Shown here: positions 51,389 through 55,982 of the stretch, piece after piece
Numbering within the stretch: position 1 is the first letter of the stretch
How the letters are laid out: every line of letters begins with the position of its first letter
Source of the DNA: Palleronia marisminoris
Lineage (GTDB): Bacteria > Pseudomonadota > Alphaproteobacteria > Rhodobacterales > Rhodobacteraceae
NCBI RefSeq assembly: GCF_900172315.1
Contig: NZ_FWFV01000002.1
Span: 186,001 to 250,000 of the forward strand
Direction of reading: 5' to 3'
DNA: 64,000 bases
Notes under the pieces: model-generated
What the model saw: only the letters and a program-made list of their open reading frames with translations
Database searches by the model: none
What the model was told of the DNA's origin: nothing
Made by a program: the position numbers and the translations under genes

Positions 51389-51436
51389 CGCTAACAGGCG
51401 GATTTGCGATCACACCAACTCGGCATGTGATCACGA
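51389..51436 (-). promoter_or_regulatory. sdh promoter block with paired GTGATC half-sites (shared with suc)
   Basis: Read on the minus strand: TCGTGATCAC (51436-51427), 12 divergent bases, GTGTGATCGCAAA, then CCGCC and TGTTAGCG (ending 51389). The same order of words occurs before sucC at 55934-55982. The two GATC cores are 21 bases apart in both. TGTTAGCG may be part of the -10 region. Seen: the conserved words and spacing. Inferred: a common TCA-cycle regulator. Confidence 0.65.
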
Positions 51437-51514
51437 TGAGAGCCGAGCGACCGCTCAGAACGGAAATCGTGTTCCGTAGCGTTCCGCGCGCTGGCCCGGG
51501 CTCATGTGGCGCCG

Positions 51515-51715
51515 TCACTGCTGACCGAGCTTGAGGTCAGGAGAGTATGGCGCGTGTTCGTGCTTCACGACGGCCTGAGCGCAGCGCATAACGTTGTTCT
51601 GGGAATCGTAGGCATAGGACGGGCTGCCGTAAAGCTCCCACCCTTTTGCGAGGGCCTCGGACACCTTGTGGCAGAAGGCCGACGTATCGTCGGCGGTCAG
51701 CAGTCTGTAGATCAT
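51515..51715 (-). CDS. DUF1737 domain protein
   Basis: A 66-aa protein starting MIYRLLTADDTSAFCHKVSE, with ALAKGWELYGSPSYAYD, the core of the DUF1737 family. Function unknown. Its start lies four bases after the nnrU stop, so it is the last gene of the mcl2-nnrU unit. ATG 51715 is preferred over longer in-frame extensions that run through the nnrU coding region. Confidence 0.78.
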   Translation of the reverse strand: MIYRLLTADDTSAFCHKVSEALAKGWELYGSPSYAYDSQNNVMRCAQAVVKHEHAPYSPDLKLGQQ

Positions 51716-51719
51716 CGGT

Positions 51720-52280
51720 TCACCGCGGAAAGGGCCAGTAGCCGAGCCACGCATGGACCGACGTGATGACGGCATACAGGATCAACGAAATGACGAGAAG
51801 GCGGATCGTCCCTTTCGTCGAACCCTCCGTATACGGCTCGGGCCGCGGTGTCGTGGCGTTCAGGAGGGCCATCTCTCCCAGCGCCCAGACGAGGAGCACG
51901 CCGAACAGCACGATGGAGGCGAGATCGCCGTTCACCGTCAGGTGCAGGGCGGCCCACAGGGCCAGGCCGGTCAACTGCGGGTGGCGGATCTTGCCGCGCA
52001 GGCTCGACTTCGACGAGCCAAGGCCAAAAAGCGCGATCGCCACGATCATCAGGAGATCGACCAGGTGCACCGTCCATTTCGGCGGCATGTAGACCGGGAT
52101 GAAATCGGCGCTGCGGTAGCCGATCACCATCAGGATCAAGGCAATCACGAGAACCACGGCGAACACGCCTTTCGACGCGTTGTCGATTCGCGCCTGCATG
52201 GCCGCCCGCGTACCGGGGGCGACCCTTTTGAACACGTGCCCCGCGATCCACAGGGCAAGGCCAAGGATGAGAAGTGCCAT
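51720..52280 (-). CDS. NnrU-family membrane protein
   Basis: Membrane protein of 186 aa with five or six helices and the isoprenylcysteine methyltransferase-like NnrU pattern (LGLALWIAGHVFKRVAPG at the N-terminus, KIRHPQLTGLALWAALHL). NnrU was first named near denitrification genes but is widespread in strains that do not denitrify; no nir/nor genes are seen here. The ATG shares a base with the mcl2-like stop, so they are co-transcribed. Confidence 0.82.
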   Translation of the reverse strand: MALLILGLALWIAGHVFKRVAPGTRAAMQARIDNASKGVFAVVLVIALILMVIGYRSADFIPVYMPPKWTVHLVDLLMIVAIALFGLGSSKSSLRGKIRHPQLTGLALWAALHLTVNGDLASIVLFGVLLVWALGEMALLNATTPRPEPYTEGSTKGTIRLLVISLILYAVITSVHAWLGYWPFPR

Positions 52281-53137
52281 CAGTTCCGTCCTTTCGCAGC
52301 ATCGAACCTGGCCAGCGTCTTGACGGCCGTGGCGACGTGGAGGTTCTCGACGATTTTCCCGTCCAAGACGGCAATCCCGCGTCCGGTCGCCTCGGCCCCT
52401 TGCCACGCTGAGATCTGACGTCTTGCAAGGTCCGCATCCGCCTCTGACGGGGTGAACGCCTCGTTGCAAACCGGCACCTGCGCCGGGTGGACGACACTCT
52501 TGCCATCCATGCCGAACGCCCTGCCCTGCTGGCATTCGCGCCGCAGGCCGTCCTCGTCCTGGAACGCGTTGTAGACACCGTCGACGCAGGCAATTCCGCC
52601 CATCCGCGCCGCCGCCAGGCATGTCTGAAGCGCCATCATCAGCGGCATGCGATCGGTGCCGATCTCGCATCCGATCTCGGCCGCGAGGTCGTTGGTGCCC
52701 ATGACGAACCCTTCCATCCGGGGCGCCCGCGCGATCTCGGCCGCGTTGAACACGCCCGCGGTGGTCTCCATCATCGCCCAGATGCGCGTGGACTCGGCAC
52801 CGCTATAACGTGCGAGCCTGTTCGCGAGCCGCTCCACGTCGTCCGGAACATTCACCTTGGGCAGAAGGATCGCATGGGGAGCGGCACCAGCGACCGCGTC
52901 CAGATCCTCGCGACCCCAATCGGTATCCAGGCCGTTGATCCGCACGATCGTGGCGCGCCCGCCATAGCCCCCCGCGTGGAGCGCCTTCACCACGCATTCC
53001 CGCGCAGCCGCCTTTTCGCCATGGGCGACGGCGTCCTCGAGATCGAGGATGATCGCATCCACGTCGAGCGTCCGCGCCTTTTCGAGCGCCCGCTCGTTCG
53101 AACCCGGGATGTAGAGGACCGACCGCCAGGACCGCAT
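52280..53137 (-). CDS. mcl2: HpcH/HpaI-family CoA ester lyase, probably (3S)-malyl-CoA thioesterase (Mcl2)
   Basis: Protein of 285 aa of the citrate lyase beta/malyl-CoA lyase family. Motifs: RSVLYIPGSNERALEKA, IILDLEDAVAHGEK, ILLPKVN, IWAMMETTAGVFNA, FVMGTNDLAAEIG and DGKSVVHPAQV. The length matches Mcl2 of Rhodobacter sphaeroides, which hydrolyses (3S)-malyl-CoA to malate at the end of the ethylmalonyl-CoA pathway, rather than the longer Mcl1 lyase. ccr at 43 kb supports this. GGGAG lies 8 bases before ATG 53137. Confidence 0.82.
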   Translation of the reverse strand: MRSWRSVLYIPGSNERALEKARTLDVDAIILDLEDAVAHGEKAAARECVVKALHAGGYGGRATIVRINGLDTDWGREDLDAVAGAAPHAILLPKVNVPDDVERLANRLARYSGAESTRIWAMMETTAGVFNAAEIARAPRMEGFVMGTNDLAAEIGCEIGTDRMPLMMALQTCLAAARMGGIACVDGVYNAFQDEDGLRRECQQGRAFGMDGKSVVHPAQVPVCNEAFTPSEADADLARRQISAWQGAEATGRGIAVLDGKIVENLHVATAVKTLARFDAAKGRN

Positions 53138-53289
53138 ATCGACTTCTCCCTGCACGCAGCATCCCGTCGCGAGGTGACACAGGCTCGCATGATCAGGCAA
53201 GGGGCTTTCGCCGCGGCGTGGCGCGCCATTAACGGTCCGTAATCCATTTTCGCGTCACCTCCCACGCAGATTCCCCCGGAGCTGGCGCA

Positions 53290-53595
53290 ATGACCCGTAA
53301 CCTGATCCTCCTCGGCCTTTCCACGCTTTCGATCGGCTGCCTGCTGGCCATGCGTCCCGCGCTCGGCGCCACGCCGGATTGCGCCCCGCGACCTGACCTG
53401 ATCGAGCTCCTGACCAAGCGTGACGGCGAAAGCTGGCGATTCTCGGGAACGGCGCAAAACGGGTCCGTGGTCGAGACGTTCGCGGCGGACAACGGAAGCT
53501 GGACTGTCCTGATCACCCGTCCGGATGGCATCAGCTGCCTTCTGGCCTCGGGCGCGGCCTTCGAAACGAACGCGAACCACGCCGGACCAGCGTGA
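53290..53595 (+). CDS. Small secreted protein of unknown function
   Basis: A 101-aa protein with a signal peptide (NLILLGLSTLSIGCLLAM, cleavage near ALGA) and two cysteines (PDCAPRP and ISCLLASG) that may pair. The segment DNGSWTVLITRPDGISCLL resembles short periplasmic proteins common in roseobacters, known to me only as hypothetical. CGGAG lies nine bases before ATG 53290. It diverges from the mcl2 unit. Confidence 0.75.
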   Translation: MTRNLILLGLSTLSIGCLLAMRPALGATPDCAPRPDLIELLTKRDGESWRFSGTAQNGSVVETFAADNGSWTVLITRPDGISCLLASGAAFETNANHAGPA

Positions 53596-54735: not shown

Positions 54736-54779
54736 GGCTGCCCAAGTAAGTAACCAGTGCCGGGTGCGTTATGCCTGGC

Positions 54780-54805
54780 CGACGGCCGCCTCCGTGCGGC
54801 CGTCG
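54780..54805 (+). terminator. Terminator of the PRC-barrel gene
   Basis: Perfect 10-bp stem CGACGGCCGC / GCGGCCGTCG with a CTCCGT loop, followed by TCATTTTA. It lies 45 bases past the stop and separates this gene from mdh. Confidence 0.8.
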
Positions 54806-54882
54806 TCATTTTAGGTTGGCCTTGCCTTGCGCACCTCTTGCCCGTAACCCTCCGCGCGATTGCTCAACCAGCGGAGACTTCC

Positions 54883-55845
54883 ATGGCCAGACCCAAGATT
54901 GCCCTGATCGGCGCGGGCCAGATCGGCGGCACCCTCGCCCATCTCGCCGCCCTGAAAGAGCTTGGCGACGTCGTGCTGTTCGACATTTCCGAGGGAACCC
55001 CTGAAGGCAAGGCGCTCGACATCGCTGAATCCGGGCCTTCGGAAGGGTTCGACGCCAAGCTCAAGGGTACCCAGGACTACGCAGACATCGCGGGCGCGGA
55101 TGTCTGCATCGTCACCGCCGGCGTGCCGCGCAAGCCCGGCATGAGCCGCGACGACCTTCTGGGCATCAACCTCAAGGTCATGAAGTCGGTCGGCGAGGGC
55201 ATCCGCGACAATGCCCCCGACGCGTTCGTGATCTGCATCACCAACCCGCTCGACGCGATGGTGTGGGCCCTGCGCGAATTTTCGGGCCTGCCCCACCAGA
55301 AGGTCTGCGGCATGGCCGGCGTTCTCGACAGCGCCCGCTTCCGCCATTTCCTGAGCCTCGAGTTCGACGTATCGATGAAGGACGTGACCGGCTTCGTGCT
55401 GGGCGGCCACGGCGATACGATGGTTCCGCTGATCCGTTATTCCACCGTCGGGGGCATCCCCCTGCCCGACCTGGTGAAGATGGGCTGGACCTCGCAGGAC
55501 AAGCTCGACGCGATCGTCCAGCGCACCCGCGATGGCGGTGCCGAGATCGTCGGCCTGCTGAAGACCGGCTCCGCATTCTACGCGCCCGCCACCTCGGCGA
55601 TCGAGATGGCCGAGTCCTACCTAAAGGACCAGAAGCGCCTTCTGCCCTGCGCCGCGTGGTGCGACGGCCAGTTCGGCCTGAAGGGCATGTATGTCGGCGT
55701 CCCCACGATCATCGGAGAGAACGGGATCGAGCGGATCGTGGACATCCAGCTGAACAAGGACGAGCAGGCGATGTTCGACAAGTCGGTCGACGCGGTGAAG
55801 GGCCTCGTCGAGGCCTGCAAGGGTATCGACGACAGCCTCGCCTGA
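54883..55845 (+). CDS. mdh: Malate dehydrogenase
   Basis: NAD-dependent malate dehydrogenase of 320 aa (LDH-like type). Motifs: [19 protein letters not shown] (NAD), [17 protein letters not shown] with the substrate Arg, [10 protein letters not shown] and [10 protein letters not shown] with the catalytic His. It converts malate to oxaloacetate. GCGGAG lies eight bases before ATG 54883. A terminator follows, so it is separate from the suc operon although adjacent. Confidence 0.96.
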
Positions 55846-55870
55846 CCCCGGCTTCGTAGTTTGATTGCAG

Positions 55871-55904
55871 CGCCCGGGGGCAACTCCGGGCGTCTTGCGT
55901 TTCG
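55871..55904 (+). terminator. Terminator of mdh
   Basis: Stem CGCCCGG / CCGGGCG with an 8-base loop (55871-55892), then TCTTGCGTTTC. It lies between mdh and the suc promoter block. Confidence 0.75.
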
Positions 55905-55933
55905 CTCGCCGATTGTTCCCCTGGTCGCCAAAG

Positions 55934-55982
55934 TCGTGATCACTGGCGCAAAGCGTGTGATCACAAACCGCGCATGTTAGCG
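55934..55982 (+). promoter_or_regulatory. suc promoter block with paired GTGATC half-sites (shared with sdh)
   Basis: TCGTGATCAC (55934-55943), 12 divergent bases, GTGTGATCACAAA, CCGCGCA and TGTTAGCG (55975-55982). The GATC cores at 55938 and 55959 are 21 bases apart, exactly as before sdhC. The block ends 92 bases before the sucC start, comparable to its distance from sdhC. Confidence 0.65.

Follow-up and report, generated by a model that had tools for sequence, protein, structure and literature searches.

The sdh and suc operons of Palleronia marisminoris (Rhodobacteraceae) are each preceded by a pair of GTGATCAC-type palindromes, and we consider it very probable, from the comparisons below, that each pair is a tandem operator for AkgR, a GntR/FCD-family activator which we take to be RSP_0981 of Rhodobacter sphaeroides, through which sdhCDAB and sucCD-odhAB would be set together. 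Both promoters lie in a window of 64,000 nucleotides (positions 186,001 to 250,000 of contig NZ_FWFV01000002.1, assembly GCF_900172315.1). An initial annotation of this window had described a shared block at 51389-51436 (minus strand, before sdhC) and 55934-55982 (plus strand, before sucC), and the block is present at both places. The sdh block reads TCGTGATCAC-ATGCCGAGTTG-GTGTGATCGCAAATCCGCC-TGTTAGCG and the suc block TCGTGATCAC-TGGCGCAAAGC-GTGTGATCACAAACCGCGCA-TGTTAGCG on their respective strands, and both follow one plan, in which GTGATCAC is followed by a 13-base gap, a second palindrome, a short stretch led by AAA and then TGTTAGCG. In each block 21 bp separate the GATC cores, as had been claimed, and likewise the palindrome starts. 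The words had also been said to recur in the same order, which is true of both blocks, with CCGC shifted by one base between sdh and suc; the variable stretch has 11 bases, not the 12 first counted, and what had been labelled half-sites are whole palindromes, the second sdh copy (GTGATCGC) carrying one mismatch. The parts of the two blocks are:

51427-51434, minus strand: promoter-distal palindrome of sdh, GTGATCAC, predicted AkgR-type site 1
51406-51413, minus strand: promoter-proximal palindrome of sdh, GTGATCGC, predicted site 2, one mismatch
51389-51396, minus strand: TGTTAGCG in sdh, resembling one arm of a CceR-type operator, in the first A/T-tract slot
55936-55943, plus strand: promoter-distal palindrome of suc, GTGATCAC, predicted AkgR-type site 1
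55957-55964, plus strand: promoter-proximal palindrome of suc, GTGATCAC, predicted site 2, centre of the only TGTGATCACA of the genome
55975-55982, plus strand: TGTTAGCG in suc, resembling one arm of a CceR-type operator

By its number alone the palindrome is unremarkable, with three exact copies of GTGATCAC in the window against 1.03 expected, a count that 12 of 100 shuffles reach. All three copies lie inside the sdh and suc blocks, in keeping with the earlier statement that the block is missing before mdh and mcl2, and among the mdh upstream regions of relatives an exact copy occurs in 1 of 37. TGTGATCACA has a single occurrence in the 3.75-Mb genome, at sucC. A rigid 38-base pattern of the block gave no match because the spacer is 11 and not 12 bases long and CCGC is offset, and an own-genome scan for GTGATC-N15-GTGATC with one mismatch allowed was uninformative (78 forward and 90 reverse matches).

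The pair is conserved across the family at both operons. A search of bacterial genomes with sucC gave, among the best 80 loci, 41 from Rhodobacteraceae or close metagenome-assembled genomes (L031-L070 and L088), which the window brings to 42, and a further 39 from other alphaproteobacteria. When each site may carry up to one mismatch and the spacing is 20-21 bp, the pair is found in 41 of the 42 Rhodobacteraceae upstream regions of sucC and in 25 of the 28 reachable ones of sdhC, and exact GTGATCAC is found in none of the 39 sucC upstreams (400 bp) of the other alphaproteobacteria. A lack of conservation before orthologous sdh and suc operons in relatives had been named as what would speak against a shared regulatory word under selection; the pair is clearly conserved there. 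Moreover, 61 whole genomes drawn from the family were searched for the exact pair pattern GTGATCACN{11,14}GTGATCAC, with the reversed pattern as control; 51 of them contain it (39 twice, 11 once and one three times) and the control is found in none. Recurrence before genes of the tricarboxylic acid (TCA) cycle, which the initial annotation had proposed to look for, is what these searches gave: among the 75 places listed of the 92 counted, 72 precede suc (40) or sdh (32) and one precedes fumC, and two, on contigs of G037 and G056, have no gene assignment. The fumC case (L113, G042:C16:228293-228321) is a third exact pair with 21-bp spacing before a class II fumarase gene whose product matches model TIGR00979 above its cut-off, which suggests that in this one genome the device may have spread to a further TCA-cycle gene.

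The same 8-mer, TGTTAGCG, stands at nearly equal offset in both window promoters, as would be expected if the shared words had arisen recently, by duplication or by gene conversion of one promoter by the other. However, the spacers are unrelated within the genome and the pair precedes both operons family-wide, hence the resemblance is old and kept by selection, as the initial annotation had argued, and we give almost no credence to a recent copy.

The spacing of the palindromes is strict. In 100 sucC upstream regions, taken without preselection of distance, exact palindromes within 400 bp of the gene are separated by 20 (9 cases) or 21 bp (79 cases) only; nine of these regions have no exact palindrome and three have one. 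In the 28 sdhC upstreams the spacings are 20 (5) and 21 bp (19), together with 12 scattered longer ones that come from third sites. Such a third GTGATCAC is seen before sdhC at six loci from several genera (L034, L041, L043, L047, L054 and L056), at a variable distance of about 33-170 bp from the sites of the pair. Two tandem palindromes are also one inverted repeat, and GTGATCAC-N12/13-GTGATCAC with outer TTT and AAA could give a stem of 8 to 11 bp, so we weighed whether the pair forms an RNA or DNA hairpin, for example an attenuator or an mRNA-stability element. We regard this as very improbable: the arms barely vary, and pairing of the flanks is near independence (0.92 observed and 0.93 expected for the outermost conserved suc flank), so that there is no covariation beyond expectation and the hairpin was unsupported when tested; a strict spacing of 20-21 bp is needless for a hairpin loop; and the promoter-like element of sdh described below lies downstream of the pair, thus the pair would not be transcribed from that element.

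AkgR, one of the candidates named initially, fits the paired word, which is the published AkgR motif. GTGATCAC was identified among the binding sites of R. sphaeroides AkgR, which is termed a transcriptional activator (PMC6365646, excerpt), and the GntR-family protein RSP_0981 was predicted to regulate RSP_0967-6 (succinyl-CoA synthetase), RSP_0974-6 (sdh) and RSP_0965-62 (odh) (PMC4344238, excerpt). In the window genome the likely ortholog is a GntR/FCD protein of 220 amino acids encoded on the minus strand at G000:C13:252368-253027, 2.4 kb after the end of the window. The gene order in genome G051 is odhB-sucA-sucD-sucC-mdh-mcl2-like-sdhC-sdhA-sdhB-GntR, as the RSP numbering predicts, and the GntR protein beside sdhB is 77% identical to the window-genome candidate over 202 amino acids. 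Because the published GTGATCAC motif, the RSP_0981 prediction and the ortholog agree, the sdh/suc block very probably belongs to the known AkgR regulon, and operator and targets are already known in kind. What is shared with R. sphaeroides is the palindrome GTGATCAC, the targets sdh, sucCD and odh, and a regulator ortholog beside the cluster; what differs is the genus and the second sdh site, GTGATCGC.

The presence and absence of the sites and of the regulator gene also agree. The sucC upstream region was readable in 59 of the 61 genomes, no sucC ortholog being found in G021 and G037; outside this count, G037 has two exact pairs and the AkgR ortholog, and G021 (79% complete) has neither. The suc pair, with at most one mismatch per site, is present in 51 of the 59 genomes, and 50 of these 51 have a likely AkgR ortholog (49 at 63% identity or above, G033 at 46% on the sucC contig). 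The eight genomes without the suc pair (G004, G008, G014, G017, G029, G048, G054 and G059) lack the sdh pair too, and none has a likely AkgR ortholog, matches there being absent or at most 40% identical. On a SucC tree these eight need 4 changes, at least 3 of them on supported branches, and fall into an early-branching group of four, G014 with G059, G048, and G029. G048 (L215, L175) is a natural control: its SdhA and SucC are 89% and 86% identical to those of the window and the sdh promoter core GTGACA-N16-TATGAC is intact, and it has no palindromes and no AkgR. These features of the AkgR regulon were found here: the motif upstream, sdh, sucCD and odh as the genes behind it, a likely ortholog with GntR and FCD domains, and sites and regulator kept or lost together. 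AkgR as the predicted regulator is well supported.

Some other protein, a GntR paralog or an unrelated factor, might instead read GTGATCAC, with AkgR co-occurring through shared ancestry. The genome has 25 GntR-domain matches, the co-loss comes from few independent events, and a Pseudomonas GntR protein 32% identical to AkgR is proposed to use the same palindrome (PMC6365646, excerpt). Against this, the candidate is the GntR gene adjoining the sdh-suc cluster both here and in G051, it is kept in none of the pair-less genomes, even in G048 with its closely similar SdhA and intact promoter core, and the published prediction for RSP_0981 names exactly these operons (PMC4344238, excerpt). We therefore hold another reader to be improbable, and AkgR stays the preferred regulator.

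Several points weigh against this assignment or against parts of the evidence for it. The identification of GTGATCAC as the AkgR motif comes from one secondary citation, and that G051 is R. sphaeroides was inferred partly from gene order. G019 (91% complete) has the suc pair, and its best GntR match is only 38% identical and no sdhA was found in it. Independent contrasts go the way of co-loss in 3 of 3 cases without G019 and in 2 or 3 of 3 with it, and the sign test gives p = 0.25 without and 0.25-0.5 with this genome; the co-loss is not significant because three contrasts, the number available on supported branches, cannot reach significance. Of the 50 AkgR matches, three (G011, G026 and G034) cross one stop codon, and that of G027 is split over two contigs. 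AkgR is kept without an intact sdh pair in G012, which has one palindrome, and in G033, which has none (the sdh upstream regions of G007 and G030 end early, at contig ends). Roseovarius sp. 217 (L046) has no GTGATCAC in its 21-kb locus. No GTGATCAC-like site with at most one mismatch is present in the 400 bp before the start of the AkgR gene, so no autoregulatory site there confirms the link. Finally, the exact promoter word considered next is missing in 9 of 74 paired sdh upstreams, including that of G015, where the word ends in G.

A scan of 51200-56100 with the standard sigma-70 consensus found no promoter. Alignment of relatives on GTGACA showed, however, a conserved promoter-like element, GTGAC[A/T]-N16-TA, upstream of sdhC, 44-88 bp downstream of the second palindrome. 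In the window it is placed as follows:

51352-51357, minus strand: predicted -35-like GTGACA, 56 bp from the start of site 2
51330-51335, minus strand: predicted -10-like TAACTA, with a 16-bp spacer from GTGACA

The distance between site 2 and this element varies in whole helical turns. The idea of such a ladder came from the first set (the L loci), and a matrix trained on these loci was then applied to the 61-genome set. This second set gave 57 sdh upstreams, of which 12 have no pair and 45 were scored. Thirty-three score well, 30 of them at 65-68 bp, two at 76 (G015 and G037) and one at 88 (G055); among the 12 poor scorers seven keep the GTGAC word, at 44 (G018), 55 (G023), 57 (G050), 58 (G058), 65 (G028) and 66 bp (G003 and G006). 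When both sets were pooled with same-genus loci and 16 upstreams without the pair were left out, there were 74 paired sdh upstreams, 65 with the promoter word and 63 with a unique single word, two promoters with two words (L044 and L281) having been dropped. Of these 63 distances, 49 are at 65-68 bp and 14 outside, at 44, 55 (2), 56, 57 (4), 58, 76, 78 (2) and 88 bp (2). The best period is 10.5-11 bp, and a phase test of the four outlying classes alone gave p = 0.0016 at 10.5 bp and 0.0006 at 11 bp, with class centres chosen post hoc. In the suc operon no clear -35 or -10 was seen; at columns 55 and 56 the base is T in 68 of 90 sequences each, with weak G/A signals at 76 and 81.

Activators of class I such as CRP in E. 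coli work from sites at several distances, whole helical turns apart. The sdh distances likewise differ by whole turns. The differences here are another activator family, tandem pairs of sites, and longer distances: if GTGACA is the -35 element, the centre of site 2 would be near -88 in the window sdh promoter and near -98 in most relatives.

The DNA between the pair and the genes is also in register with the palindromes. A/T tracts recur about every 10 bp in both operons:

51361-51401, minus strand: part of the sdh upstream region where the A/T tracts of relatives repeat at intervals of about 10 bp, in register with the palindromes
55969-56009, plus strand: corresponding part of the suc upstream region, its A/T tracts likewise at intervals of about 10 bp and in register with the palindromes

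Downstream of site 2, the A/T content of both operons has maxima near columns 18-19, 29, 39 and 49. With the period set to 10.2 bp, our own choice, the peaks are at 18.5, 28.7, 38.9 and 49.1 alike in suc (91 sequences) and sdh (69), with a mean vector (R) of 0.86 in each. R is 0.85-0.86 in both sets for periods of 10.0-10.5 bp, against at most about 0.3 in a rotation null (9.5-10.5 bp), and the phasing is kept in GC-rich subsets (R 0.83 in 17 suc and 0.77 in 13 sdh sequences). The tracts are mostly AA/TT steps and TA is rare, and in the two window promoters the tract phase is equal within one base. The suc period signal is broad (R 0.70-0.87 over 8.5-11.5 bp and 0.72 at 14 bp) because a stretch of 41 bp gives little resolution, and a control stretch upstream of site 1 is also weakly above the null (R at most 0.43 in suc and 0.30 in sdh). 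When the start codon is taken as anchor in place of the palindromes, the 51 genomes with the pair show no phasing (R 0.17-0.23, inside the null), nor do the eight without it, a comparison of little power. Some species may be in both the L and the G set (90 of the 91 suc sequences are distinct), and because related species are not independent, the statistics of ladder and tracts make the evidence look stronger than it is; that two separate operons agree is the better argument for the register.

These observations suggest activation that depends on the helical face, perhaps over curved DNA. Two AkgR dimers would bind the two GTGATCAC palindromes two turns apart on the same face of the helix and activate sdhCDAB and sucCD-odhAB jointly, so that the middle of the TCA cycle would be set as one unit. 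Since the sdh pair-to-promoter distances and the A/T tracts are in helical register, AkgR probably contacts RNA polymerase from one face, for example at the alpha C-terminal domain; curvature of the A-tracts may assist this contact, or the tracts may themselves dock the alpha C-terminal domain. Binding as a dimer of dimers, the polymerase contact and curvature are what we infer from this geometry. We lean, with moderate confidence, towards a family-wide device of AkgR palindromes two turns apart, about four A-tracts in the same register and whole-turn distances to the sdh promoter, which together would form a DNA ruler coupling both operons; if this is true, curved or face-aligned DNA is a built-in ruler that brings an activator to RNA polymerase.

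The second regulator named initially, CceR, fits in part: the CceR-type sites at zwf and edd have one arm that matches TGTTAGCG, and neither of the two window promoters has a full site. The CceR motif is [A/G/T]GTT-N6-8-AAC[A/C/T] (PMC4344238, excerpt); read by eye, this inverted repeat is not in the sdh or suc promoters of the window, which have only the TGTTAGCG arm. In the window genome CceR-type sites, GTTGGCGCTAAC and GTTAGCGTTACC, stand near the starts of zwf and edd (L255 and L268), genes that are among the CceR/GapR targets (PMC4052901, excerpt). A search of this genome for GTTAGCGCTAAC with at most two mismatches gave 23 matches, the only one-mismatch match preceding zwf and one of the 22 two-mismatch matches preceding edd; the edd site is weak evidence because the reversed control has 130 matches. 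A LacI-family protein at G000:C11:198307-199299 is 73% identical to a G051 protein near the interpolated place of RSP_1663. By its position the G051 protein is putatively RSP_1663, and the best NCBIfam model of the presumed CceR is a gluconate-type GntR, under its cut-off.

A possible reading, about which we are tentative and rather doubtful, is thus a composite operator with AkgR on the palindromes and CceR on the adjacent TGTTAGCG, by which carbon status (6-phosphogluconate) and TCA demand would be read together. Besides the CceR-like protein and the zwf and edd sites, it is favoured by the position of the arm: TTAGCG begins 18-20 bp beyond the first base of site 2 in 8 of the 19 same-genus promoters compared, including the two of the window, and the pattern GTGATCRC-N5-14-TGTTAGCG occurs in 5 of 14 genomes of the genus and never in the control. 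Family-wide, GTTAGCG half-sites are commoner than expected in the 70 bp next to the pair, for example in 6 of 91 regions downstream of the suc pair against 0.41 in shuffles, its place not being fixed. Full CceR-like sites (at most three mismatches) are enriched downstream of the sdh pair (10 of 25 against 4.2 shuffled), but not downstream of the suc pair (16 of 91 against 13.4). Published regulons point both ways. In R. sphaeroides, sdh is a predicted target of CceR (RSP_1663; PMC4344238, excerpt), and its regulon there is said to include sdh and 2-oxoglutarate dehydrogenase (PMC11323563, excerpt), whereas the same excerpt places both outside the regulon of Paracoccus denitrificans, and the targets of GapR (= RSP_1663) in the excerpt of PMC4052901 include mdh, not sdh or suc. 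Both window promoters, moreover, have a single arm and no inverted repeat, the gluconate-type GntR match counts against a CceR role as well, and TGTTAGCG occupies an A/T-tract slot and may merely fill it. A role of the arm in CceR binding is possible on present sequence comparisons.

Two other LacI-family proteins, PckR in Rhizobiales and GluR in Caulobacter, are likewise predicted to act on mdh-sucCDAB and sdh (PckR) and on sucABCD (GluR), but they are unrelated to AkgR and their motifs are said to differ (PMC4052901, excerpt); GTGATCAC is absent from all 39 sucC upstreams outside the family. Our literature search (titles and abstract openings; the main AkgR paper was not covered) found no description for AkgR of the tandem spacing, of the ladder or of phased tracts. 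As an activator of the central TCA cycle, AkgR has been little studied, although the family is large and includes marine, soil and phototrophic bacteria. Its operator hardly varies, stands almost only before sdh and suc (once before fumC) and is missing along with the AkgR gene in several lineages, and the helical ladder and phased tracts make its mode of activation simple to test.

The genes of the two operons in the window are:

46965-51275, minus strand: sdhCDAB operon (sdhC 50886-51275, sdhD 50483-50875, sdhA 48666-50468, sdhB 46965-47744)
56075-63803, plus strand: presumed regulated suc operon (sucC 56075-57268, sucD 57651-58532, sucA/odhA 59285-62245, sucB/odhB about 62250-63803)

NCBIfam models identified sdhC, sdhA and sdhB on the minus strand and mdh, sucC, sucD, sucA and sucB on the plus strand; sdhD matches PF01127 and scores 1 bit under its NCBIfam cut-off. 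mdh sits between the sdh and suc blocks, with a terminator-like stem 3' of it at 55870-55893; such stems in the region 51200-56100 number 5 against 3.1 expected, not clearly above chance. The AkgR gene is on the odhB side of the cluster here and on the sdhB side in G051 (L168), and ccr (43024-44280) is on the sdhB side in the window. This suggests a possible inversion of the sdh-suc segment with respect to the flanking DNA. Between sucC and sucD an open reading frame (ORF) of 97 amino acids (57327-57620) has no NCBIfam or Pfam match, and a DUF805 protein of 187 amino acids is encoded between sucD and sucA (58627-59190). The ORF adjoining mdh (53716-54735) has a PRC-barrel domain, and repeats of E, A, T and V abound in its C-terminal half.

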